From the NCBI RefSeq assembly GCF_030295425.1, contig NZ_AP027081.1, forward strand, positions 1,054,001-1,118,000: a DNA stretch of 64,000 nucleotides. The letters run 5' to 3'. The notes beneath the pieces are model-generated. The model had not been told where the DNA came from and ran no database searches. It saw only the letters and a program-made list of their open reading frames with translations. The position numbers and the translations under genes were made by a program. The DNA comes from Mesoterricola sediminis (GTDB taxonomy: Bacteria > Acidobacteriota > Holophagae > Holophagales > Holophagaceae). Below, piece after piece: positions 15,672-46,881 of this stretch (the stretch's first letter is position 1; each line of letters begins with the position of its first letter).

Positions 15672-15699
15672 TTGCGGGGCGTCCGATGATTGCTAGAAT
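15672..15699 (+). promoter_or_regulatory. Possible sigma-70-type promoter for 15755 gene
   Basis: TTGCGG (15672-15677), a 16-base spacer and TAGAAT (15694-15699, five of six matches to TATAAT) would place transcription start about 50 bases before the ATG at 15755. The -35 match is weak, so this is tentative. Confidence 0.3.
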
Positions 15700-15754
15700 C
15701 AAGACCTCTTACCTTGAGAAAACGTTCATTTCCCCCCGCCTCTGGAGGTCCCGC

Positions 15755-16297
15755 ATGAAACGGCGATTCCACACTCTTCGACCCCTCGGCCTCGCCGCCG
15801 TGGGTGCGGCGGCCCTGGGCATCCTGGGCTGTTCCGGGGCCTCCGGGAGCGGGGAGACTCCGCGCCTGGGCTACACCAATCCGGCGAGCAGCGGGTACCA
15901 GCTCGTGGCCGATCCCTCCAGCACGGCCACCCACGTGGTGCTCAACCTCGTCGGCCCCGCCGGCGCGCAGCTCCAGGGCGGCACCTTCGCCCTCACCGCG
16001 GACGCCAGCAAGGTGACCTGGTCCACCACGGTCGCCGAGGGCGGGGCCCTCGACCTGGGCTCCGGCGTGAAGCTCATGAAGAGCAAAGTGGACGCGGAAT
16101 CCCTGCAGGTGGCCATCTACCAGAAGGGCACGACGGCCGCCACCCTGGCCGCGAAGCCCCTCTTCTCCGTCGCCCTGGACCTGAAGGCCGGCGCCAAGGG
16201 CGCCGTCGCCCTGAACGCGTCCTCCGCCAAGATCCTCGACGCCTCCGGCGCCACCGTGACGGTGCCCGTGGCCGTCGGCACCCTGACCGCCCAGTAG
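15755..16297 (+). CDS. Cohesin-like lipoprotein of unknown function
   Basis: 180 residues starting at an ATG preceded by GGAGG (15744-15748). An in-frame ATG at 15686 lacks a ribosome site. The signal peptide ends in a lipobox (GILGC, Cys26), so the mature protein is a lipoprotein. The remaining ~150 residues are one beta-rich domain with no catalytic motif. Its end (LFSVALDLKAGAKGAVAL, SSAKILDASGATVTVPV) has the cadence of a cohesin domain, the module that binds dockerins. This is a weak, by-eye resemblance, but the next gene ends in a dockerin-type calcium loop, which makes it worth testing. It lies 25 bases before that gene, in the same direction. Confidence 0.7.
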   Translation: MKRRFHTLRPLGLAAVGAAALGILGCSGASGSGETPRLGYTNPASSGYQLVADPSSTATHVVLNLVGPAGAQLQGGTFALTADASKVTWSTTVAEGGALDLGSGVKLMKSKVDAESLQVAIYQKGTTAATLAAKPLFSVALDLKAGAKGAVALNASSAKILDASGATVTVPVAVGTLTAQ

Positions 16298-16322
16298 ACC
16301 GGACCGGATGAGGAGACACGAC

Positions 16323-17930
16323 ATGACGCTCACTTGCTTCCAGTCCTCCAAACGGATCCTCCGGGCCGCGGCCGCCCTCGCGGCGCTCCTGGCGGCGCGG
16401 CCGGCCCTGGCCACCGACTACATCTACTGGACCAACTACCTGAACGGCACCATCAGCCGGGCCGTCCTGCCCGCCGGGCCCGTGGATGATCCCTGGATCA
16501 AGCCCGCGGTCCTGGGGAACCCCGCGGCCATCGTCACCGACGGCGTGAACGTTTACTGGGTGGACAACGCCGGCGGCAGCCCGCGCATCGGCACGGCTCC
16601 CCTCAGCACCCCCGTGGACACCACGGGCACCAATCCCTACGTCCTGTCCGGGGTGAGCTTCAGCACCCAGCTCCGGGGCCTCAGCATCGACACGGACGGG
16701 ACCGACATCTTCCTCTTCGTGGCCGACTACGGCGGCAAGAAGCTCACGGCCGTGAACCTCACGTCCAAGGCGACGACCACGCTGCTGGACACCTCCACCA
16801 TCGGCACGGGCATCGATCCGGCCGGCATGCTCCCCGGCGCCTGCCGCATCGATTCCAGCGCCTCCCCCAAGGTCATCTACTGGGGCACGCACACGGGCCA
16901 GATCTACAGCACCACCTTCACCTACACCGGGGGCGTCCCGGGGGCCGGCACCACGACCCAGCTCGCGACCGGGTTCCCGGCGGATTCCATCTGGGACCTC
17001 TCCTACACCGGCGGGAACCTCTACGCCATGATCTTCGCCAACTTCGGGGATCCCAACAGCGGCATCAACCTGATCAGCGGGGGCATCGGGACGGTGGTCG
17101 GCAACGGCGGGCAGGGGTACTCCCAGGGCAACGGCCTCCGCGCGTGGAACGGCAACTTCTACTATTACGATGCCTTCGGCCTTCAGGTCATGCCGGTGGG
17201 CGGCGCCTCGCCGACGGTCATCCTCACCCCCGCGGACACCATGGTGGGCGGCATCACCACCGTGACCCCCAACGCCACGGTCGTGTCCCTGACGAGCCTC
17301 ACGGCCAAGGCTGCCAACGGCAAGGTCACCGTCAGCTGGACCACCGGCTCCGAGGTGGCGACCACGGGCTTCAATGTCCACCGGGCCACCACCCTCGCCG
17401 GTCCCTACACCCGGGTCAACGCCGCCCTCATCCCCGCCACCGGCACGAATGTGAGCGGCGCCTCGTACGCCTGGACCGACGCCCAGGTCGCCGCCGGCAC
17501 CACCTACTTCTACAAGCTGGAGGACGTGGACGCCAAGGGCCAGAGCACCTTCCACGGCCCGGTCTCCGCGCTGGCCGCGAACTCGGCCATCGCCGCCTTC
17601 CAGGCCACCCCCGCCAGCATCTTCCTCGGCGGCGGCTCCCTGCTGGCCTGGACCGTGAACGGCGCCAGCGCCCTCCTGGACGGCACGGCCGTGACGGGCG
17701 CCAGCCAGTGGGTCGCCCCCACCGCCACCCGGAGTTACACCCTCACCGCCGGCGCCGATTCCGCCGTGACCACGGTGACCGTCAAGGCCTTCGGCCTGGA
17801 CGACATCGCCGGGCTGGCCAAGGCCTGGGGCCACAAGCGGGGTGAGGCCGCCTACGATCCCTCGTACGACTTGAATGGTGACGGCCAGGTGGACGACACC
17901 GACGCCGCGCTCTGCTTCAAGGGCCTGTAG
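16323..17930 (+). CDS. Secreted YWTN/propeller protein with Fn3-like domain and dockerin-type C-terminus
   Basis: 535 residues from the ATG at 16323, which follows AGGAG by seven bases; an ATG at 16308 is less well placed. A signal peptide ends near residue 30 (ARPALA). Residues 32-320 have blade-like repeats (YIYWTNYLNGTISRAVL, VNVYWVDNAGG, KVIYWGTHTGQIYS) resembling YWTD-type beta-propellers. Residues about 335-430 look like a fibronectin type III domain (GKVTVSWTTGSEVATTGFNVHR), followed by another Ig-like segment. The last 40 residues hold a helix (LDDIAGLAKAWG) and a canonical dockerin F-hand loop, DLNGDGQVDDTD (residues 516-527), with D1, N3, D5 and D12 present. Only one complete loop exists, unlike classical two-repeat dockerins. 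The protein may assemble on the cohesin-like lipoprotein encoded just upstream. Confidence 0.8.
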   Translation: MTLTCFQSSKRILRAAAALAALLAARPALATDYIYWTNYLNGTISRAVLPAGPVDDPWIKPAVLGNPAAIVTDGVNVYWVDNAGGSPRIGTAPLSTPVDTTGTNPYVLSGVSFSTQLRGLSIDTDGTDIFLFVADYGGKKLTAVNLTSKATTTLLDTSTIGTGIDPAGMLPGACRIDSSASPKVIYWGTHTGQIYSTTFTYTGGVPGAGTTTQLATGFPADSIWDLSYTGGNLYAMIFANFGDPNSGINLISGGIGTVVGNGGQGYSQGNGLRAWNGNFYYYDAFGLQVMPVGGASPTVILTPADTMVGGITTVTPNATVVSLTSLTAKAANGKVTVSWTTGSEVATTGFNVHRATTLAGPYTRVNAALIPATGTNVSGASYAWTDAQVAAGTTYFYKLEDVDAKGQSTFHGPVSALAANSAIAAFQATPASIFLGGGSLLAWTVNGASALLDGTAVTGASQWVAPTATRSYTLTAGADSAVTTVTVKAFGLDDIAGLAKAWGHKRGEAAYDPSYDLNGDGQVDDTDAALCFKGL

Positions 17931-17978
17931 GCCCGGTCCCCCCTCCCCAACCCTCGAGTCCACGTGTAGGAACCATTC

Positions 17979-18143
17979 ATGAAAAACTCAAACGTTGAGA
18001 AAAATGGACTTTCCAACGATGCGGTCCTTCCGGCCTACGTGCCGCCGACCGTCACCGTCTACACCAGCCAGGAGATCATCGAGCAGGTGGGCCCGGCCCT
18101 GACTTGCAGCCTCCTGCCCTGTCCCGCCGATGCCGCCGGGTGA
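17979..18143 (+). CDS. Putative RiPP precursor peptide (54 residues)
   Basis: ATG at 17979 with an AGGAA six bases upstream; TGA at 18141-18143. The first 14 codons are unusually A/T-rich for this genome, typical of a strongly translated small gene. The peptide has a polar N-terminus, then Y20-V-P-P-T-V, resembling the Y-x-x-P leader motif bound by PqqD-like recognition domains. An amphipathic helix follows with EIIEQVGPA (32-40), and a short tail carries Cys43 and Cys48 (TCSLLPCP). The next gene encodes a radical SAM/SPASM enzyme with a fused PqqD domain, so this is most simply its substrate, with GPA near the leader/core border. It is short enough to be missed by gene finders. No homologue search was possible; the product structure is unknown. 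Confidence 0.75.
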   Translation: MKNSNVEKNGLSNDAVLPAYVPPTVTVYTSQEIIEQVGPALTCSLLPCPADAAG

Positions 18144-18165
18144 TCGGAGGCTCCCCCTCGCCCCT

Positions 18166-18197
18166 CAGGGCACCCTCGCGGGTGCCCTGTCTTTTTT
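18166..18197 (+). terminator. Intrinsic terminator/attenuator after precursor peptide
   Basis: A perfect ten-base stem (CAGGGCACCC / GGGTGCCCTG, loop TCGC, 18166-18189) is followed at once by TCTTTTTT. It lies between the precursor gene and the modification enzymes. Partial read-through would yield much more precursor than enzyme, a common RiPP arrangement. Confidence 0.88.
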
Positions 18198-18300
18198 GCG
18201 GACCTCAACATCTCTTTTTTACCAGGGAGGGGGTGTCGTCCGCCCCCTTTCCCGGGGCTCCCGGGCCCGGTTGCCCGGCCTTTTCCGATAGGATGCTTGC

Positions 18301-19689
18301 ATGGATCAAACGACGGTGGAAGCCACGTACAAGCCCGTCCAGGGCACGCCGGCGGGCGCCTTCCTCGCCTATGTGCCCGAAGGGGCGGACGGGGACGCGA
18401 TCCTCCTCCACCCCCGCGCGCCCAAGTGGGTCCGGGTGAACCGGACCGCGCGCCGGATCATCACCCGCATGACCGAGCCGGGCGGCAGCGCGGAGGCCGC
18501 GGCCCAGGACCTGGCCGCCGCCTACGGCCTCGCGCCGGAAGCGGCCCGCCGGGACGTGGCCGCCGTGGAGGCCGACCTGGTCCGCCACGGCTTCCTGGGG
18601 AACAGCGAGGACATGGAGGACAAGCCCCGCTTCGGCTCCCTCTTCCTCATCCTCACCGAGCGCTGCAACCTGGCCTGCGCCCACTGCTACGGGGGCTACC
18701 CGGACCGGGAGGAGATGCCCGTGGCCCGGGTGCTGGAGCTCATCGACGAGCTGGTGGCCGGGGGGGGCACCTCCATCACCTTCAGCGGCGGCGAGCCCCT
18801 CCTCTACCCGGGTCTGGAGCAGGCGCTGGAACGGGCCGATCCCCACCTGCGCATCCAGCTCTGCACCAACGGCATCCTGATGGACGCGCGTTGGGCGGCG
18901 CGCTTGGCCCGCCTGCGGGATCCCCTCATCCAGGTGAGCCTGGACGGGCCCACCTGCGAGATCCACGACGCCGTGCGGGGCCCCCACGCCTTCGACGGGG
19001 CCCTGCGGGGCATCCGCCGCCTCCAGGAGGCGGGCCTGGCGGACAAGATCGTCCTGGCCGCCACCATCCAGGCCATCAACAAGGATCACCTCATGGAGAT
19101 GGTGCACCTGGCCGCGGGCATGGGCGTCTCCAAGCTCCGCTTCCTGCCCCTGCGGCCGGAGGGGACGGCCAAGACCACGTGGGACACCACGGGCGACGGC
19201 ATGGACACCGCCACGTACGAGCGCATCTTCGACCAGTTCCTCAACGGCACCGAGCGCCTTCCCCGGGGGCTGGAGGTGAGCTGCGGCCTCAGCGGGTTCA
19301 CCCTGAACCAGGCCGGCGGCAGCGCCGCGGGCGGCCTGGTCTGCTCCGTGGGCCGCAACCTCTGCGTGGAGGCTTCGGGGGAGGCCTATCCCTGCGCCGC
19401 CCTGAACCGGGAGAGCATGCGCCTCGGCAACGCCCGCACCGAGTCCCTCGCCGCCATCATCCACGGGGAGGCCCACGCCCGGGTGCACGGCATCAAGCAG
19501 CGCCGGATGCACGAGATCGAGGCCTGCTCCCGCTGCCTGTGGCGGCACTTCTGCCAGTCCGGTTGCATGGCCATCGCGGAGAACGAATCGGGCACCGTGT
19601 GGGCCCGGGAATCCATCTGCGAGTACCGCCAGCGGGCCTACGCCCGGGCCTTCTCCTCCATCCTCGCGGTGCCGGGACCGGAGGCCTGA
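18301..19689 (+). CDS. PqqD-fused radical SAM/SPASM peptide maturase
   Basis: 462 residues. Residues about 20-105 form a PqqD-like winged-helix recognition domain (KWVRVNRTARRIITRM, then RRDVAAVEADLVRHGFL). The radical SAM core begins at 115 with C122-x3-C126-x2-C129 and Y130, and the SAM-binding FSGGEPLLYP follows. The C-terminal SPASM domain supplies auxiliary Fe-S ligands: C348, C355, C365, C409, C412, C418, C422 and C440. Such enzymes form thioether or C-C bonds, or epimerise residues, in small peptides held by the PqqD domain; Cys43 and Cys48 of the upstream peptide are obvious acceptors for thioethers. AGGA lies seven bases before the ATG. The stop shares one base with the next start (TGATG). 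Confidence 0.92.
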   Translation: MDQTTVEATYKPVQGTPAGAFLAYVPEGADGDAILLHPRAPKWVRVNRTARRIITRMTEPGGSAEAAAQDLAAAYGLAPEAARRDVAAVEADLVRHGFLGNSEDMEDKPRFGSLFLILTERCNLACAHCYGGYPDREEMPVARVLELIDELVAGGGTSITFSGGEPLLYPGLEQALERADPHLRIQLCTNGILMDARWAARLARLRDPLIQVSLDGPTCEIHDAVRGPHAFDGALRGIRRLQEAGLADKIVLAATIQAINKDHLMEMVHLAAGMGVSKLRFLPLRPEGTAKTTWDTTGDGMDTATYERIFDQFLNGTERLPRGLEVSCGLSGFTLNQAGGSAAGGLVCSVGRNLCVEASGEAYPCAALNRESMRLGNARTESLAAIIHGEAHARVHGIKQRRMHEIEACSRCLWRHFCQSGCMAIAENESGTVWARESICEYRQRAYARAFSSILAVPGPEA

Positions 19690-20723
19690 TGGGGGTGGCG
19701 CACTACCAGGTCCTGGATGTGGGGCTCCGCCTGGAGAGCGCCGACGCCGCCTTCCTGGAGGCCTTCCGGGAGGACTACGCCCGGTTCGCCGTGGAGGCCG
19801 TCCCGGAGCCCGCGCTGCGCGTGCGCTTCGAGGACGGCCCCGGGGCCTTCCTGGACGTGGACGGGACCCGCACCGACCTGTCGGCCCACCCCACCCCCGC
19901 GGGCCAGGCGGCCCTGGACCTGGCCCAGCTGCTCATGGACCGGAACACCGCCTTCACCGTCCTCCACGCGGGCGTGGTGGGCGCCCCGGGCGGCGCCATG
20001 GCCGTGTCGGGCCCCTCCGGGGCCGGGAAGACCACCCTGACCCTGGCCCTCCTGGACAGCGGCTGCGCCTACCTGTCGGACGACTTCTGCCCCGTGCACC
20101 GGGCGACGGGCCTGGTCCATCCCTTCCCCCGCAGCCTCTGGGTGCGCGCGAAGCCGGGCCAGGCCTCCAGCAACCGGCGCCGCGGCAAGCTCCTCCATCC
20201 CCTGGACGGGTCCGCCTTTCCCGTGGAGACCCGGCCCCGGCCCTTGCGCTGGCTGCTCTGCCTCGAGGCCCAGGGCCTGGACGCGGCGCCCAACCGGCTG
20301 CGCCTGGCCCCCAAGGCGGGGCAGGGGGAGGCCCTGCTGGCGGAGCTGCGGGCCCTGCCGGGGGTGCGGCTGGCGCCCACCCGGGGCCCGGAGTGGCAGG
20401 TGACCTACGGACGGCAGGAAGGCCTCACGGCCGCCGTGACGGCGGTCCTGGAACGCCACGCGGGGGCCGTCTGGCACGCCTACGCCCAGGCGGCGGCGGA
20501 GCCGGACTTCGCCCGGGAGGCAGTGCTGGAGCCCCTGACGGCCGCCGAGGCGGCCTTCTTCGTGCTGCGGGAGCTGAAGCACCGCCCCGGCGGCGCCCGC
20601 CCGGGAGCCCTCCTCGGCCATCTGATCGAACTCCTGGCAGGCACAGCCTGCTATCGTTTGACCCCAGGACCCCTCGAACGGCGCCTCGCCCTGGCGCGGG
20701 GACTCCTGGAGGAAGGCGCATGA
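19689..20723 (+). CDS. HPr-kinase/phosphorylase-like kinase of RiPP operon
   Basis: 344 residues. The centre resembles the HprK fold: LHAGVVGAPGGAMAVSG followed by the P-loop GPSGAGKTT (Lys114) and a DSGCAYLSDDFCPV segment with acidic residues suited to magnesium binding. HprK-type kinases near PqqD and radical SAM genes are known in modified-peptide loci, and in some lasso peptide clusters they phosphorylate a serine of the precursor. This peptide has Ser and Thr in its tail (T42, S44), so that role is a reasonable guess. The C-terminal 120 residues are of unknown function. The ATG overlaps the previous stop by one base and its own stop overlaps the protease gene by four. Confidence 0.82.
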   Translation: MGVAHYQVLDVGLRLESADAAFLEAFREDYARFAVEAVPEPALRVRFEDGPGAFLDVDGTRTDLSAHPTPAGQAALDLAQLLMDRNTAFTVLHAGVVGAPGGAMAVSGPSGAGKTTLTLALLDSGCAYLSDDFCPVHRATGLVHPFPRSLWVRAKPGQASSNRRRGKLLHPLDGSAFPVETRPRPLRWLLCLEAQGLDAAPNRLRLAPKAGQGEALLAELRALPGVRLAPTRGPEWQVTYGRQEGLTAAVTAVLERHAGAVWHAYAQAAAEPDFAREAVLEPLTAAEAAFFVLRELKHRPGGARPGALLGHLIELLAGTACYRLTPGPLERRLALARGLLEEGA

Positions 20724-22912
20724 TCCATTCCCGGTCCTGGATCGCCCGAACCGCGTGCGCGCTGGCGCCGCTGGCCCTGACCCTGGCCTGCGGAGGCGGC
20801 GGCGGAGGCGGCGGGCAGCAGGAGACGCCGGGCACCCTCCGCACCACGCGCCTGGAGGTGACCGCGGGGGGCCTCGTGCGGCTGCCCTACGCCACCCTGG
20901 CCGCCGCTGGCCTGGCCGAAGGAAGCCTGCGGGTCGCGGGGCTGCGCCTGACCGCCCAGGGCCGGACCCTGCCCCTGGCCACCAGCCACGGGGATGGGGC
21001 CACGTTCGCGGCCGGCGACGCCCTGGAATTCCACGCGCCGGTCATGGACACGGCCTACACCGGCACCAACGTCTTCTGGCTCTCCCAGGCCGCGGGCGCC
21101 GCCCAGGCCACCCGCGGCGCCGCCCCGGGAACGGGCGCGGCCGCCACCGTCCTGGAGGACGTCCTCCACGTGGAGGAGAACCACACCCTGTGGGGCCTGA
21201 CGCCGGGCATCCCGGACGCCGATCCCTGGTTCTGGGCCAAGCTTACGGCCCCGGCCGCCAAGGACATCCCCTTCACCCTGCCGGGCCTGGACGAGTCGTC
21301 CATCCCCTCCCGGCTCACGGTGCGCATCGCCGGCAAGAGCGCCACGGGCCTCTCCCCCGATCACCACGTGCAGGTGACCCTCAACGGGACCCGGGTCGGG
21401 GACCTGACCTGGACGGGCACCGCCGTCTCCGCCCAGGAGCTGGCCGTGCCCGCCGGGGTCCTGGCGGCGGGGACCAACACCCTGAGCCTGGTCCTGCCCG
21501 GGGATACCGGCGCCTCCGTGGACCAGGTGCTCCTGGACGCCTTCGAGGTGCGGTACGGCCGGCCCCTGGCGGCCGTGGGCGGGCGCCTCGCCTTCACCCT
21601 GCCGGCGGGCGCCTCCGGACCCGTCCGCATCACCGGATTCCCCTCCGCGGACCTGCGCCTGCTGGACGTGACCGACCCCGCGGCCCCCGTCGCCCTGACG
21701 GGCTTCACCAAGGTGCAGGACGGCGCCACCTGGACCCTCACCTTCCAGGACGCCTCCGCCGCCACCGCCCGCGCCTGCCTCGCCGTGGCGGCCACCTCGG
21801 CCCTGGCGCCGGCCAAGGTGGAGGGGCGAACCCTGGGGGCCCTGCGGGCCGCCACCAACGGCGCGGACTGGATCCTGGTGACGCCCCGGGCCTTCCTGGC
21901 CGCCGCGGAGCCGCTGCGGGCCTTCCGCCAGGCCCAGGGCCTCCGGGCCGTCACCGTGGCCGTGGAGGACATCTACGACGAGTTCGGGGCGGGCCTCCCC
22001 ACCCCCGAGGCCATCAAGGCCTTCCTGGCCTTCGCCCGCACCGGCTGGGTCCAGCCCGCGCCGGCCTACGTGCTCCTGCTGGGGGACGCCACCTACGACT
22101 ACCGGGACCGCATGGGCACCGGCAAGGCCAGCCAGGTGCCCTGCCACCTGTCAGTCACCGCCCAGCTGGGCCTGACCCCGGACGACAACTGGTACGCCGC
22201 CCTGGACGGCGCCTCCGAACTCCCCGTGATGCGCATCGGGCGCCTGCCCGCAGCCTCCGCGGCCCAGGCCGCCCAGATCGTGGCCAAGCTCCTCGCCTAC
22301 GAGCAGGGCGCCGCGCCCCCCGCCCGGGCCCTCCTGGTCGCGGACAACCTGGACCTGGCCTTCGAGGCGATGGCGGGCCAGGCGATGAACCTGATCCCCG
22401 GGACCGTGACGAAGCAGCGCATCGACCTCGACACCTACGCCGACTACGGCCTGGCCAGCGCCGACCTGGTCGCGGCCTTCAACCAGGGCCTCTGCCTCAC
22501 CTACTATTCCGGGCACGGTGACGTCGCGGACTGGGCCGGGGAGATGGTCCTCAACAACGCCAAGGTGCCCCTCCTCACGAACGCGGGCCAGCTGCCCTTC
22601 TCGGTGATGCTGAACTGCCTCAACGGCTGGTTCGCCATGCCCGGCTCGTACAGCCTGGCCGAGACCCTGGTGGCCTCCCCCGCCGGGGGCTCCGTGGGCG
22701 CCTTCGCGTCCAGCGGGCTGAGCTACACCTGGGAGCAGGCCCTCCTCCAGGGCCGGCTCCTGCCCCTCCTGTTCCGCGCGGACCGCCCCACCCTGGGCGA
22801 GGCCTGCACCCTGGCGCGCATCCAGGCCTACCAGGACGGGGCCAGCCTGGACCTGGTGCGGACCTTCACCCTCATCGGGGATCCCGCCCTGCGCCCGAAG
22901 CTGCCCCAATGA
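20720..22912 (+). CDS. Gingipain-type cysteine protease lipoprotein (peptidase family C25)
   Basis: 730 residues with a signal peptide and lipobox (LTLAC), followed by a poly-Gly spacer, so it is exported and lipid-anchored. Residues about 40-390 are beta-rich N-terminal domains (CBM-like segment GLSPDHHVQVTLNGTRVGDL). The caspase-like C25 domain occupies about 390-725. It has the catalytic His in YYSGHGD (His599) and the catalytic Cys in MLNCLNGWF (Cys633), and ends with FTLIGDPALRPK, a common C25 tail. A secreted protease inside the RiPP operon could remove the leader or process target proteins. The start overlaps the kinase stop (ATGA) and its stop overlaps the S26 gene (ATGA). Confidence 0.9.
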   Translation: MIHSRSWIARTACALAPLALTLACGGGGGGGGQQETPGTLRTTRLEVTAGGLVRLPYATLAAAGLAEGSLRVAGLRLTAQGRTLPLATSHGDGATFAAGDALEFHAPVMDTAYTGTNVFWLSQAAGAAQATRGAAPGTGAAATVLEDVLHVEENHTLWGLTPGIPDADPWFWAKLTAPAAKDIPFTLPGLDESSIPSRLTVRIAGKSATGLSPDHHVQVTLNGTRVGDLTWTGTAVSAQELAVPAGVLAAGTNTLSLVLPGDTGASVDQVLLDAFEVRYGRPLAAVGGRLAFTLPAGASGPVRITGFPSADLRLLDVTDPAAPVALTGFTKVQDGATWTLTFQDASAATARACLAVAATSALAPAKVEGRTLGALRAATNGADWILVTPRAFLAAAEPLRAFRQAQGLRAVTVAVEDIYDEFGAGLPTPEAIKAFLAFARTGWVQPAPAYVLLLGDATYDYRDRMGTGKASQVPCHLSVTAQLGLTPDDNWYAALDGASELPVMRIGRLPAASAAQAAQIVAKLLAYEQGAAPPARALLVADNLDLAFEAMAGQAMNLIPGTVTKQRIDLDTYADYGLASADLVAAFNQGLCLTYYSGHGDVADWAGEMVLNNAKVPLLTNAGQLPFSVMLNCLNGWFAMPGSYSLAETLVASPAGGSVGAFASSGLSYTWEQALLQGRLLPLLFRADRPTLGEACTLARIQAYQDGASLDLVRTFTLIGDPALRPKLPQ

Positions 22913-23358
22913 GGCGCGACGAGGCGCTCCGGGCCCTCCGGAGCCTGCTGGACGCCGGCCGCCCCTGCACCGTGGACGTGCGGGGGGTGAGCATGGAGCC
23001 CTTCCTGCGCGCGGGGGACCGCGTGCGGGTGGAGCGCGCCGACCCGGGCCGGCTGGCCCTGGGGGATCTGGTGGCCTTCGAGGAGGACGGCAACCTGATC
23101 GTGCACCGGTTCGCGGGCTGGACCGGGGCCCGCGGAGGCCGCTGGTTCCGCCAGACCGGCGACAACATGATCGGCTTCGGCCTCGTGCCCTCCGAGGCAC
23201 TCCTGGGCCGGGTGACGGCCCTGGAGACGGGGAGCGGCGTCCGGCGGCTGGACCGGGGCTGGGCCGGCGCGGCCTGCCGCCTGCGGGGCCTGCGGGTCCT
23301 CGCCGCCCGGGGGCTGCGGGCGGGCCTGGGCCGGGCCCTGGCCTGGAGGCGCCGGTGA
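22909..23358 (+). CDS. S24/S26 signal-peptidase-like protease with Ser/His dyad
   Basis: 149 residues. The S26 box GVSMEPFLRAGDRV contains the nucleophile Ser28. The second box reads GNLIVHRF with His66 where the bacterial signal peptidase I family has Lys, so it resembles the archaeal/ER/SipW type (S26B). The third box is FRQTGDNM. No clear membrane anchor is visible, unlike typical signal peptidases, so it may act in the cytoplasm or peripherally on the modified peptide. S24/S26-like genes occur in several peptide-maturation loci. It is tightly coupled on both sides (ATGA before, GTGA after). Confidence 0.82.
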   Translation: MRRDEALRALRSLLDAGRPCTVDVRGVSMEPFLRAGDRVRVERADPGRLALGDLVAFEEDGNLIVHRFAGWTGARGGRWFRQTGDNMIGFGLVPSEALLGRVTALETGSGVRRLDRGWAGAACRLRGLRVLAARGLRAGLGRALAWRRR

Positions 23359-24122
23359 GCGGCGACTGGGGCATCCGCTGCGAGGGCCTCGGCCGGCGCT
23401 TCGGGGCCGCGGAGGCCTTGCGCCGGGTGGACCTGGGCGTGCGCCGGGGGAGCCTGGTGGCCCTGGTGGGCAGCAATGGGGCCGGGAAGACCACCCTCAT
23501 GAAGATCCTGGCCACCCTCCTCCTCCCTTCCGAGGGGCGGGCCGAGATCCTGGGCCTGGACGTCGCGTCCGCCTCCATGGCCTGCCGCCGGGCCATCGGG
23601 TACGCCCCCGCCGAGGAGCGCAGCTTCCACGGTCGTCTCACCGTGGCCCAGAACCTGGCGTTCTTCGCGGACCTCCGGGGCGTGGACCCCGCCGTCCAGC
23701 GCCGCCGCGCCCCCGCGCTCCTCGAGGCCATGGGCCTGGACCCCGCGGGGCGGGCGCGGTTCTCCGACCTGAGTTCGGGCATGAAGCAGTCCCTGTCCCT
23801 CGTGCGGGCCCTCCTCCACGAACCGCCGGTGCTCCTCCTGGACGAGCCCACCCGCAGCCTCAGCCCCGACCTGGCCCGGCGCGTGGGGGACCTGCTCCGC
23901 CACGAGGCCCGGAGCCGGGGGCGGACCATCCTCCTCGCCACCCACAACCTGGGCGAGGCCGACGCCGTGGCCGACGAGGTGGCGGTGCTCCACCGGGGCG
24001 TCCTGCGCGTCCAGGGCGAGCCCCGGGCCCTCTGCGCGGAACTGGGCCTCCCGGGCGCGTCGGGGGCGGAGGCGGTCTTCATGCACGCGACCGGCGAGGC
24101 CCCCGTGGCGGAGGCGCCGTGA
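23355..24122 (+). CDS. ABC transporter ATP-binding protein of RiPP operon
   Basis: 255 residues from a GTG that overlaps the peptidase stop. All ABC motifs are present: Walker A (GSNGAGKTT), the signature SSGMKQSL, Walker B with LLLDEPT and the switch His in LATHNLGE. The closest architecture is the CcmA/ABC-2 exporter type, not peptidase-containing exporters. It pairs with the permease encoded by the next gene, whose start overlaps its stop by four bases, and should export the matured peptide or supply a self-protection function. Confidence 0.92.
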   Translation: MSGDWGIRCEGLGRRFGAAEALRRVDLGVRRGSLVALVGSNGAGKTTLMKILATLLLPSEGRAEILGLDVASASMACRRAIGYAPAEERSFHGRLTVAQNLAFFADLRGVDPAVQRRRAPALLEAMGLDPAGRARFSDLSSGMKQSLSLVRALLHEPPVLLLDEPTRSLSPDLARRVGDLLRHEARSRGRTILLATHNLGEADAVADEVAVLHRGVLRVQGEPRALCAELGLPGASGAEAVFMHATGEAPVAEAP

Positions 24123-24925
24123 TCCGCATCCTGCGCGCCCTGGTCCTGCGCGACCTCCGCCACGAGGCGAGCTACCGCCTCCCCTTCGTCCTGACCTTCG
24201 TCGGGAACCTCCACATCTTCCTGGTCTTCCTCTTCATCTCCCGGCTCTTCGGGGGCCTGGAGCCCGCGGGACTGGCCGCGTTCAAGGGCGGCTTCTTCCC
24301 CTACGTCCTCACGGGCATCGCCATCCAGCAGTACCTGCACCTGGCCCTGAGCACCTACGCCGGCCAGATCCGCGAATCCCAGCTCATGGGGACCTTCGAG
24401 GCCGTCCTGGCATGCCCCGTCCCGCTCCCGGCCTACCTCGCGGGCTCGGCCCTCTACGCCTTCGGGCTCAACACCGTCCACGCCCTCCTCTACCTGGTCC
24501 TGGGCGTCCTCCTGGGCGGCCTGAGCTTCCCCTGGAGCCAGGTGCCCCTCCTCCTGCTGGTGCTGGCCGCGACGGCGGCGGCCTTCTCCGTCATCGGCAT
24601 CCTTTCGGCCAGCTACTGCGTGCTCTTCAAGAAGGGGAACCCCCTCACCCTGGTGGCCGTCCTGGCCTCCTCGCTGCTGGGCGGGGTCTACTTCCCCGCC
24701 CATGTCCTGCCCGCCTGGATCCGGGGCGTCTGCGCCTGGGTGCCCATGACCCACGCCCTCGACGCCCTCCGGGGCGTCCTCCTCCAGGGGCGGGGCCTGG
24801 CCGGCATCGCCGGCTCCCTCCTGATCCTGGCCGCCTGGGCCGTCCTGGGCCTGCCCCTGGCCTGCTGGATCTTCAGCCGGGCGGTGGCCCGGGGCCGTTC
24901 GACGGGAAGCCTGGGCCAGTACTGA
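24119..24925 (+). CDS. ABC-2 type permease of RiPP operon
   Basis: 268 residues from a GTG, with about six membrane segments and the ABC-2 layout. A cytoplasmic start leads to a first helix (LPFVLTFVGNLHIFLVFLFI), then an amphipathic region (ESQLMGTFEAVLACPVPLPA) that in ABC-2 permeases contacts the ATPase. The late GGVYFPAHVLPAWIRGV segment is also typical of the family. It is the last gene of the coupled series starting at 18301. The substrate is inferred from context as the modified peptide. Confidence 0.9.
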   Translation: MIRILRALVLRDLRHEASYRLPFVLTFVGNLHIFLVFLFISRLFGGLEPAGLAAFKGGFFPYVLTGIAIQQYLHLALSTYAGQIRESQLMGTFEAVLACPVPLPAYLAGSALYAFGLNTVHALLYLVLGVLLGGLSFPWSQVPLLLLVLAATAAAFSVIGILSASYCVLFKKGNPLTLVAVLASSLLGGVYFPAHVLPAWIRGVCAWVPMTHALDALRGVLLQGRGLAGIAGSLLILAAWAVLGLPLACWIFSRAVARGRSTGSLGQY

Positions 24926-27790: not shown

Positions 27791-28545
27791 ATGCCGAGAC
27801 GTTTCCTGACCGATGCCATGTGGGCAAAGCTTGAACCGCTCCTTCCGCCAGAGCGTGGAGGGATGGGGCGATCCCGTCACCCCAACCGTCCCATGGTGGA
27901 GGCGATCCTGTGGAGGCACAGGACTGGGGCGCCGTGGAGGGACCTGCCGGAGGAATTTGGACCTTGGACAAGCGTGTACACGCGATTTGAGGCCTGGACC
28001 AAGCGCGGCGTGTGGCAAAGGATCCTGGAGTTCCTGCGCAAGGAAGCCGACCTGGAGTGGGTCATGCCGGATGGCACCATCCTTCGCGCTCATCAACCTT
28101 CAGCAGGCAAAAGGGGGGGCTCTGGAACCAGGCGCTCGGACGATCTCGGGGTGGATGCTCGACCAAGATCCATTTGATCTGCGATGCCCACGGTAATCCT
28201 TTGGATTTCCTGGTCACTCCGGGGCAAGCCCATGAAAGCCGGTCTGCTGAAGGATTGCTGTGCGGTTGGCAGGCAGAGTACGTGTTCGGAGATCGGGCCT
28301 ACGATGGGAACCCGGTAAGGAAGGCGATCGAGGCCATGGGTGCGACAGCCGTCATCCCACCTCATCCCCGGCGCAAGAATCCGGCGGCCTGGGACTCACA
28401 CCTATACAAGGCCCGCCATGCCATCGAGCATGGGTTCGCCAAGCTCAAACAGTTCAGGGCGCTGGCCACCAGGTTCGACAAAACGGCGCGAAGTTTCTCA
28501 GCCCAGGTGGCTTTGGCCTGCATCGTGATCTGGCTGAGGCTATGA
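27791..28545 (+). CDS. IS5-family transposase, two frames joined by -1 frameshift (copy 1)
   Basis: Frame A (27791-28177) begins MPRRFLTDAMWAKLEPLLPP, the usual IS5/IS427-group start, and carries the first catalytic Asp in MPDGTILRAHQ. Frame B continues to 28545 with the second Asp in VFGDRAYDGNP and the Glu in HAIEHGFAKLKQFRALATRF. The frames join by a -1 slip at AAAAGGGGGGG (28109-28119), giving a 251-residue DDE transposase. Because the same slippery run is kept in both copies, this is programmed frameshifting rather than decay. The element may be active. Confidence 0.9.
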
Positions 28546-46126: not shown

Positions 46127-46881
46127 ATGCCGAGACGTTTCCTGACCGATGCCATGTGGGCAAAGCTTGAACCGCTCCTTCCGCCAGAGCGTGGAGGGAG
46201 GGGGCGATCCCGTCACCCCAACCGTCCCATGGTGGAGGCGATCCTGTGGAGGCACAGGACTGGGGCGCCGTGGAGGGACCTGCCGGAGGAATTTGGACCT
46301 TGGACAAGCGTGTACACGCGATTTGAGGCCTGGACCAAGCGCGGCGTGTGGCAAAGGATCCTGGAGTTCCTGCGCAAGGAAGCCGACCTGGAGTGGGTCA
46401 TGCTGGATGGCACCATCATTCGCGCTCATCAACCTTCAGCAGGCAAAAGGGGGGGCTCTGGAACCAGGCGCTCGGACGATCTCGGGGTGGATGCTCGACC
46501 AAGATCCATTTGATCTGCGATGCCCACGGTAATCCTTTGGATTTCCTGGTCACTCCGGGGCAAGCCCATGAAAGCCGGTCTGCTGAAGGATTGCTGTGCG
46601 GTTGGCAGGCAGAGTACGTGTTCGGAGATCGGGCCTACGATGGGAACCCGGTATGGAAGGCGATCGAGGCCATGGGTGCGACAGCCGTCATCCCACCTCA
46701 TCCCCGGCGCAAGAATCCGGCGGCCTGGGACTCACACCTATACAAGGCCCGCCATGCCATCGAGCATGGGTTCGCCAGGCTCAAACAGTTCAGGGCGCTG
46801 GCCACCAGGTTCGACAAAACGGCGCGAAGTTTCTCAGCCCAGGTGGCTTTGGCCTGCATCGTGATCTGGCTGAGGCTATGA
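46127..46881 (+). CDS. IS5-family transposase, two frames joined by -1 frameshift (copy 2)
   Basis: Identical architecture to copy 1: frame A 46127-46513 with the first Asp in MLDGTIIRAHQ, slippery AAAAGGGGGGG at 46445-46455, and frame B to 46881 with VFGDRAYDGNP and the catalytic Glu in HAIEHGFARLKQ. A few substitutions distinguish the copies (for example MLDGTII here against MPDGTIL in copy 1). LDGT is nearer the family consensus, so this copy may be the more competent one. Confidence 0.9.

Follow-up and report, generated by a model that had tools for sequence, protein, structure and literature searches.

A candidate RiPP pathway with a PqqD-radical SAM fusion, an HprK-like protein and a C25 protease in Mesoterricola sediminis

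Within a 64,000-nucleotide stretch of the Mesoterricola sediminis genome (contig NZ_AP027081.1, positions 1,054,001 to 1,118,000, in the following termed the window), a gene for a peptide of 54 amino acids (aa) is followed by six genes that encode a radical S-adenosylmethionine (SAM) enzyme, an HprK-like protein, a protease of family C25, a peptidase of family S26 and the two parts of an ABC exporter. The locus raises the question whether these genes form one pathway for a ribosomally synthesized and post-translationally modified peptide (RiPP), as a preliminary description of this DNA had proposed, and which step each protein would then perform. We hold it for probable, with moderate rather than high confidence, that the operon encodes a RiPP pathway with radical SAM, HprK, S26, ABC-2 and C25 steps. 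As the same core set recurs in at least six further genomes of relatives, the operon can be regarded as an apparently new pathway subtype and not as a chance cluster.

The gene set and its precursor peptide

A check of the open reading frames (ORFs) and the sequence confirmed the operon at positions 17979-24925 with the coordinates and the gene order described before, and the overlaps of 1-4 bases reported for the six downstream genes were measured as 1, 4, 4, 4 and 4 bases. All genes lie on the plus strand. The precursor gene (17979-18143) encodes MKNSNVEKNGLSNDAVLPAYVPPTVTVYTSQEIIEQVGPALTCSLLPCPADAAG and is preceded by AGGA at 17968-17971, 7 nt before its ATG, and the gap of 157 bp between it and the radical SAM gene holds a terminator-like hairpin. 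Relatives were found through searches with the radical SAM protein and with an alignment of it; the single protein alone gave only remote radical SAM matches (26-29%) against the genome contigs. In this way eight loci in seven genomes and four families of the phylum were obtained, namely the window, L037, L039+L040, L038, L041, L042, L052, and L062. One genome has two copies, L037 and L039+L040, the latter split across two contigs, and L042, L052, and L062 belong to three families other than that of the window. The genes for the peptide, the PqqD-radical SAM protein, the HprK-like protein and the C25 protease occur in identical order at all eight loci, which bears out the proposal of a RiPP-type system with a conserved gene set and peptide. 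Among the relatives we saw neither a locus without a conserved small peptide nor unrelated genes between the parts, the two observations named beforehand as speaking against such a system. The S26 gene is present at all five loci of the window's family, and the ABC pair at four of these five (the contig of L037 ends first) as well as on the opposite strand at L052. The distribution is patchy, with the system in 4 of 77 genomes of the window's family and in 2 of 94 in one other order. Pairwise identities covary among the radical SAM protein, the HprK-like protein and the C25 protease (Mantel r 0.88-0.90, with 0.90 both for radical SAM against C25 and for radical SAM against HprK) and between these and the peptide (r 0.60-0.67; permutation p 0.002-0.02), which fits a gene set travelling together, although such Mantel statistics include shared species history. 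Judged from the sequence comparisons, the recurrent set represents a real and apparently undescribed RiPP subtype.

The profile of the peptide matches one copy per locus and nothing elsewhere in those genomes (E 2e-25 to 6e-18); a second match in L038 (1926-1867), located in another frame inside the nucleotidyltransferase gene, was dismissed as chance. The reading frame is kept at all eight loci with synonymous changes, the codon comparison covering the loci other than L038. That the peptide ORF is coincidental, and that the genes serve as secretion or processing operon for another substrate, is hardly credible: this reading gained no support from the data on frame, codons and profile, and it is contradicted by the conservation of the peptide. 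Invariant in the eight aligned peptides are Y20, Y28, G38, P39, A40, and C43, and the pattern reads YxPPx[I/V]xxYxxEEILExxGPAxxC; the tail behind it has 6 to 43 residues. The operon encodes both a short precursor that is conserved at every locus and a recognition domain for which the precursor carries a matching leader motif. This motif, YxxPx[I/V] (Y20-V25, 18036-18053), is the predicted binding site of the PqqD domain, which resembles a RiPP recognition element (RRE), and corresponds to the motif bound by the recognition domains of lasso peptide systems and of the linear polyphosphorylated peptide (LPP) systems (LPP: PMC13381572). In the form YxxPx[I/V/L] it is found at 7/8 loci; L042 has Ala instead of P23, and L052 has Leu at the I/V place.

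The invariant G38-P39-A40 (18090-18098) is the predicted boundary between leader and core. It is also kept in a relative at L113:9178-9396, which retains YVAPEIVTYTPEDFLALLGPAQ and then continues with an unrelated tail free of Cys; next to this peptide lie a nucleotidyltransferase gene and a PqqD-like ORF, and no radical SAM gene is in view. Since L113 keeps the leader with another tail, the comparison suggests that the sequence up to GPA is the leader and the Cys-containing tail the core, the exact cut being a prediction. The core would then comprise LTCSLLPCPADAAG (18099-18140), a variable tail with the invariant C43 (18105-18107). Cys had been named before as the modification site, which is plausible, as C43 is the only invariant Cys. 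The PALTC stretch of the peptide was rejected as a lipobox, as no hydrophobic signal precedes it and the consensus is apparently not matched, and the ranthipeptide pattern CX3D/E was rejected as a trait of the class, being found in just three of the eight peptides.

Predicted modifying enzymes and described systems

The radical SAM protein (18301-19689) combines PqqD (E 1e-9), Radical_SAM (4e-27), and SPASM (1e-8) in one polypeptide. The CX3CX2C motif and seven SPASM cysteines are invariant (C122, C126, C129, C348, C365, C409, C412, C418, C422, and C440), and the best solved-structure match of the PqqD part is TfuB1, the RRE of a lasso system. It can be assumed that the precursor of 54 aa is bound at its YxPPx[I/V] leader by the PqqD/RRE domain and modified in the short Cys tail after GPA by the radical SAM-SPASM part, most likely through a thioether or other crosslink based on Cys43. 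All NCBIfam maturase models score far below their cut-offs for this protein, the highest being the mycofactocin maturase with 132 bits. As this is the closest radical SAM family by score, the peptide could be a conserved redox or structural cofactor, as are PQQ and mycofactocin, instead of a secreted effector. However, the score is far below the cut-off of 265 bits, the strongest conservation is that of the leader, which is shared with L113 of another core, the tail after C43 varies so much in length, and the patchy distribution is like that of LPP, so that we consider a cofactor very improbable. Radical SAM matches in G320, G332, and G358 were set aside as other PqqD-radical SAM proteins with neither C25 nor HprK in view. 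At L053:10853-11011 (minus strand) in G320, a 52-aa peptide with YEPP precedes such a different PqqD-radical SAM protein, with an ABC transporter after it; this locus without HprK or C25 is another YxxP-radical SAM type.

For the HprK-like protein (19689-20723), the sequence alone gives a weak assignment (HprK_rel_A E 1e-10, Pfam Hpr_kinase_C 0.07), and therefore a structure was modelled on the basis of eight orthologues (pLDDT 84). Its matches include PEPCK (Z 15) and HPr kinase/phosphatase (Z 12), two groups with one common fold. By the modelled fold and its Walker A motif the protein is kinase-like, the shared fold being no proof of kinase activity. HprK homologues are known to phosphorylate Ser of RiPP precursors, as for paeninodin (PMC8498205) and by LppK (PMC13381572), and by this precedent the phosphorylation considered possible in the preliminary description is plausible; the protein would phosphorylate Ser/Thr, most likely Ser44 beside Cys43. 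A PF14907 nucleotidyltransferase, which may elaborate the phosphate, is encoded after S26 at L037, L038, L039, and L041, its gene at L052 preceding that of the peptide, and such an enzyme has been tied to the addition of sugar to the precursor phosphate (PMC8498205). Among the genes of the window's cluster no PF14907 nucleotidyltransferase is present. At a distance of about 32 kb upstream from the peptide gene, the genome has its only such enzyme (G000:C1, about 1,039,288-1,040,490; L081:8789-9991); it shares 42-44% identity with the enzymes of L037, L038, and L039, and its gene opens a polysaccharide-type gene cluster, like LPP genes in Bacilli.

The closest described system is LPP (lppAKBSDN; Nat Commun 2026, PMC13381572). 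Both have a leader with YxxPx[V/I] and a PqqD-type RRE that binds it (here by prediction), an HprK-like kinase (here by modelled fold and Walker A), a SipW-type leader peptidase with Ser, His and Asp, a nucleotidyltransferase (here in most relatives), an exporter and a patchy distribution. However, the RRE is fused to the radical SAM-SPASM enzyme here and discrete in LPP, the exporter is ABC-2 and DrrAB-like instead of MsbA-like, and of the LPP leader consensus YxxPxVLxHQxIxFETxxS only YxxPx[I/V] is shared; membership in LPP was rejected on these three grounds. Moreover, LPP contains neither a radical SAM enzyme nor C25, whereas the system of the window has both and a Cys in its core, and LPP is reported as restricted to Bacillota (PMC13381572). 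By analogy, the system may follow the scheme of LPP, extended by a radical SAM enzyme and a C25 protease. The phosphorylated lasso peptides paeninodin and pseudomycoidin (PMC8498205) likewise share a YxxP or WxxP leader, an HprK kinase and a nucleotidyltransferase, but neither a B2 cysteine leader peptidase nor a lasso cyclase was recognised at the loci examined, which carry a radical SAM enzyme instead. With the SPASM maturases of sactipeptides and ranthipeptides (SkfB, PapB) the enzyme shares CX3CX2C, the full set of SPASM cysteines and a Cys-containing core; it differs by scores below the maturase cut-offs, by one invariant Cys only and by the lack of a consistent CX3D/E. The SynChlorMet cassette (ScmA-F, NCBIfam) also encodes radical SAM-SPASM, PqqD-like and HprK-like (ScmC) proteins, but has the paired ScmE/ScmF instead of one radical SAM protein; ScmF scores 117.6 against a cut-off of 400, and ScmC about 18 against 125, the latter in relatives only.

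The combination of genes had been put forward as a candidate new system. This stands for the radical SAM enzyme together with C25, but not for S26, HprK, nucleotidyltransferase and YxxP leader, which is the set of LPP published in 2026. Our full-text literature search, which covered few subscription journals and is thus limited evidence, returned no paper on C25 or gingipains in RiPP biosynthesis, and C25 is not mentioned in a review of RiPP leader proteases. If confirmed, C25 would be an added protease family in RiPP maturation, and radical SAM chemistry would be joined with the phospho-peptide logic of LPP outside Bacillota. The operon is small and testable, and seven natural variants and two sister types are available for comparison.

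Proposed leader removal and export, and the C25 protease

The S26 protein (22909-23358; SipW/archaeal-type) was recognised by profile (S24/S26, E 7e-5), and its residues S28, H66, and D85 are invariant in the five loci. The Kyte-Doolittle average of its most hydrophobic stretch of 19 residues is 1.32 at most, and with so low a maximum a membrane helix is unlikely. The SipW-like LppS cuts the leader presented by the RRE, as seen in a cell-free assay and in cells, for which Ser, His and Asp are essential and the recognition domain is required (PMC13381572). S28/H66/D85 can be compared with S29/H68/D93 of LppS, D85 and D93 being equated by position and GDN context instead of by an alignment with LppS. 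By this analogy it is most likely that S26, a soluble peptidase, acts like LppS and cuts off the leader in the cytosol before export. The proposal that S26 trims outside the inner membrane has to be revised, since the protein lacks a transmembrane segment and carries the Ser/His/Asp of LppS. At L110:2171-3847, S26 and a PF14907 nucleotidyltransferase are fused and adjoin HprK and C25, with no radical SAM gene or recognised peptide. The peptide would be exported by the ABC-2 pair, composed of a DrrA-like ATPase (23355-24122; ABC_tran E 3e-28) and a DrrB-like permease (24119-24925; ABC2_membrane E 5e-17), both conserved in L038, L039, and L041.

The C25 protease (20720-22912) matches the Peptidase_C25 profile with E 2e-74, and its catalytic dyad H599 and C633 is invariant in seven aligned proteins. 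It is present in a single copy in the window's genome. Four of the proteins (window, L037, L038, and L039) have a lipoprotein-like start, which in the window is a signal-like N-terminus with TLA-C24 and no strict lipobox; in those of L041, L042, L052, and L062 the N-terminal region is longer and lacks a lipoprotein-type Cys, so that lipid anchoring, previously put forward as a trait of the class, does not hold for half of the loci. Further C25 loci were picked as the best-scoring ones outside the eight, which makes any enrichment in them one after selection and without a background rate. L111 contains HprK, PqqD, radical SAM-SPASM, a YEKPMI peptide and C25, and L114 contains PqqD, radical SAM, a YRKPVI peptide, HprK, S26 and C25; L110 has HprK, C25 and the S26-nucleotidyltransferase fusion, and L109 has C25, S26 and an ABC pair. 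These four loci differ in gene order, and their peptides are unrelated to that of the window. As the sister loci L111 and L114 pair C25 with HprK, PqqD, radical SAM and YxxP peptides, gene neighbourhood indicates that C25 is no passenger. Since it has a signal sequence and S26 is placed in the cytosol before export, C25 can be assumed to act outside the inner membrane, where it would make the last cut or process the target of the peptide; we assign it the final processing of the exported peptide with modest confidence. In G097, a single genome of the phylum, there are 17 C25 matches, and several of these ORFs also have an FnIII-like domain related to that of the dockerin protein of the window.

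Several points weigh against the pathway as proposed. No crosslink partner for Cys43 is conserved downstream of it, Ser44 is replaced by Thr in one locus and by Ala in another, and the HprK-like protein may not be a kinase, since its sequence is very divergent. C25 proteins of similar type occur in 65 of 396 genomes of the phylum (E 1e-100), commonly without this radical SAM protein, and because they are so common, co-occurrence of C25 alone is weak evidence. Furthermore, S26 was seen neither at L042, where the contig ends in C25, nor at L052, and at L062 no S26, nucleotidyltransferase or ABC genes were seen. As C25 and GPA are present at all eight loci, the three loci without visible S26 favour C25 being the true leader or activating protease, which would cut the whole modified precursor at GPA once it has been exported and leave S26 with another job or substrate. 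We judge this unlikely, though worth serious attention, as the contig of L042 ends in C25, and S26, where present, has an intact triad and no transmembrane helix, like LppS.

Cohesin/dockerin neighbours and other features of the window

C25 resembles PorU, the type IX sortase (PDB 6za2), in its catalytic domain, the His/Cys dyad and a PorU-like N-terminal region, and its profile matches PorU over nearly the whole length (E 7e-33) and gingipains over the catalytic domain. However, it is a short form (730 aa) with a lipoprotein-like N-terminus in a RiPP operon, and its NCBIfam PorU score is 215 bits against a curated cut-off of 420. Directly upstream of the peptide gene in the window lie genes for a cohesin-fold lipoprotein (15686-16297, plus strand; AlphaFold2 pLDDT 84; top Foldseek matches all cohesins, E 6e-6) and for a secreted protein with FnIII-like and dockerin-like C-terminal parts, the latter a terminal repeat, found by profile search (16308-17930, plus strand). 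Their association with the system is uncertain. Such a pair is likewise found ahead of the peptide gene in L038 and L040. In L109, a dockerin domain (E 1e-7) forms the end of the C25 protease itself, and upstream of HprK-C25 in L110 lie genes for a dockerin protein and for a lipoprotein that weakly matches cohesin. From this one could assume that C25 is a PorU-like surface sortase or maturase for the adjacent dockerin protein, and that the peptide serves this surface complex as a ligand or regulator or is attached to it as a decoration. This reading is doubtful, as cohesin/dockerin pairs are present at four other places of the genome without C25, none was seen at L042 or L062, and the PorU score is below its cut-off.

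The cohesin lipoprotein family has five copies in the genome, which adjoin other dockerin-bearing proteins (also at L075, L076, L077, and L078), and occurs in most relatives; with five copies, this neighbour is not specific to the system. Cohesin and dockerin were thus rejected as obligate parts, being widespread in the family without the system, and the pairs are possibly an outer-membrane anchoring device. The C25-dockerin fusion in L109 keeps a link to the system open. A more specific variant, in which the PorU-like C25 attaches the peptide, once this has been crosslinked, phosphorylated and exported, to a surface protein that the neighbouring cohesin/dockerin pair retains, seems to us quite improbable; if true, C25 would be a peptide transferase or sortase, and the RiPP a covalent decoration of a cell-surface complex and not a released compound.

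The hairpin after the precursor gene (18166-18197, plus strand), a likely attenuator, has a 10-bp stem with the arms CAGGGCACC and GGTGCCCTG followed by T6 and lies behind the stop codon of the peptide. L037, L038, and L040 have a hairpin at the same place, there within the 5' coding sequence of the radical SAM gene (QGT..GAL); in L038 it shows a paired change. The hairpin of the window is separate and terminator-like, and another frame of its sequence encodes QGTLAGAL; by sequence it looks as if derived from a duplicated start of the radical SAM gene. A promoter search by consensus found none, and Rfam returned no match. Further downstream, at about 27791-28545 and 46127-46881 of the window, transposase-like ORFs of equal lengths (128, 127, and 177 aa) are present, and these two sets are apparently two copies of one insertion element.

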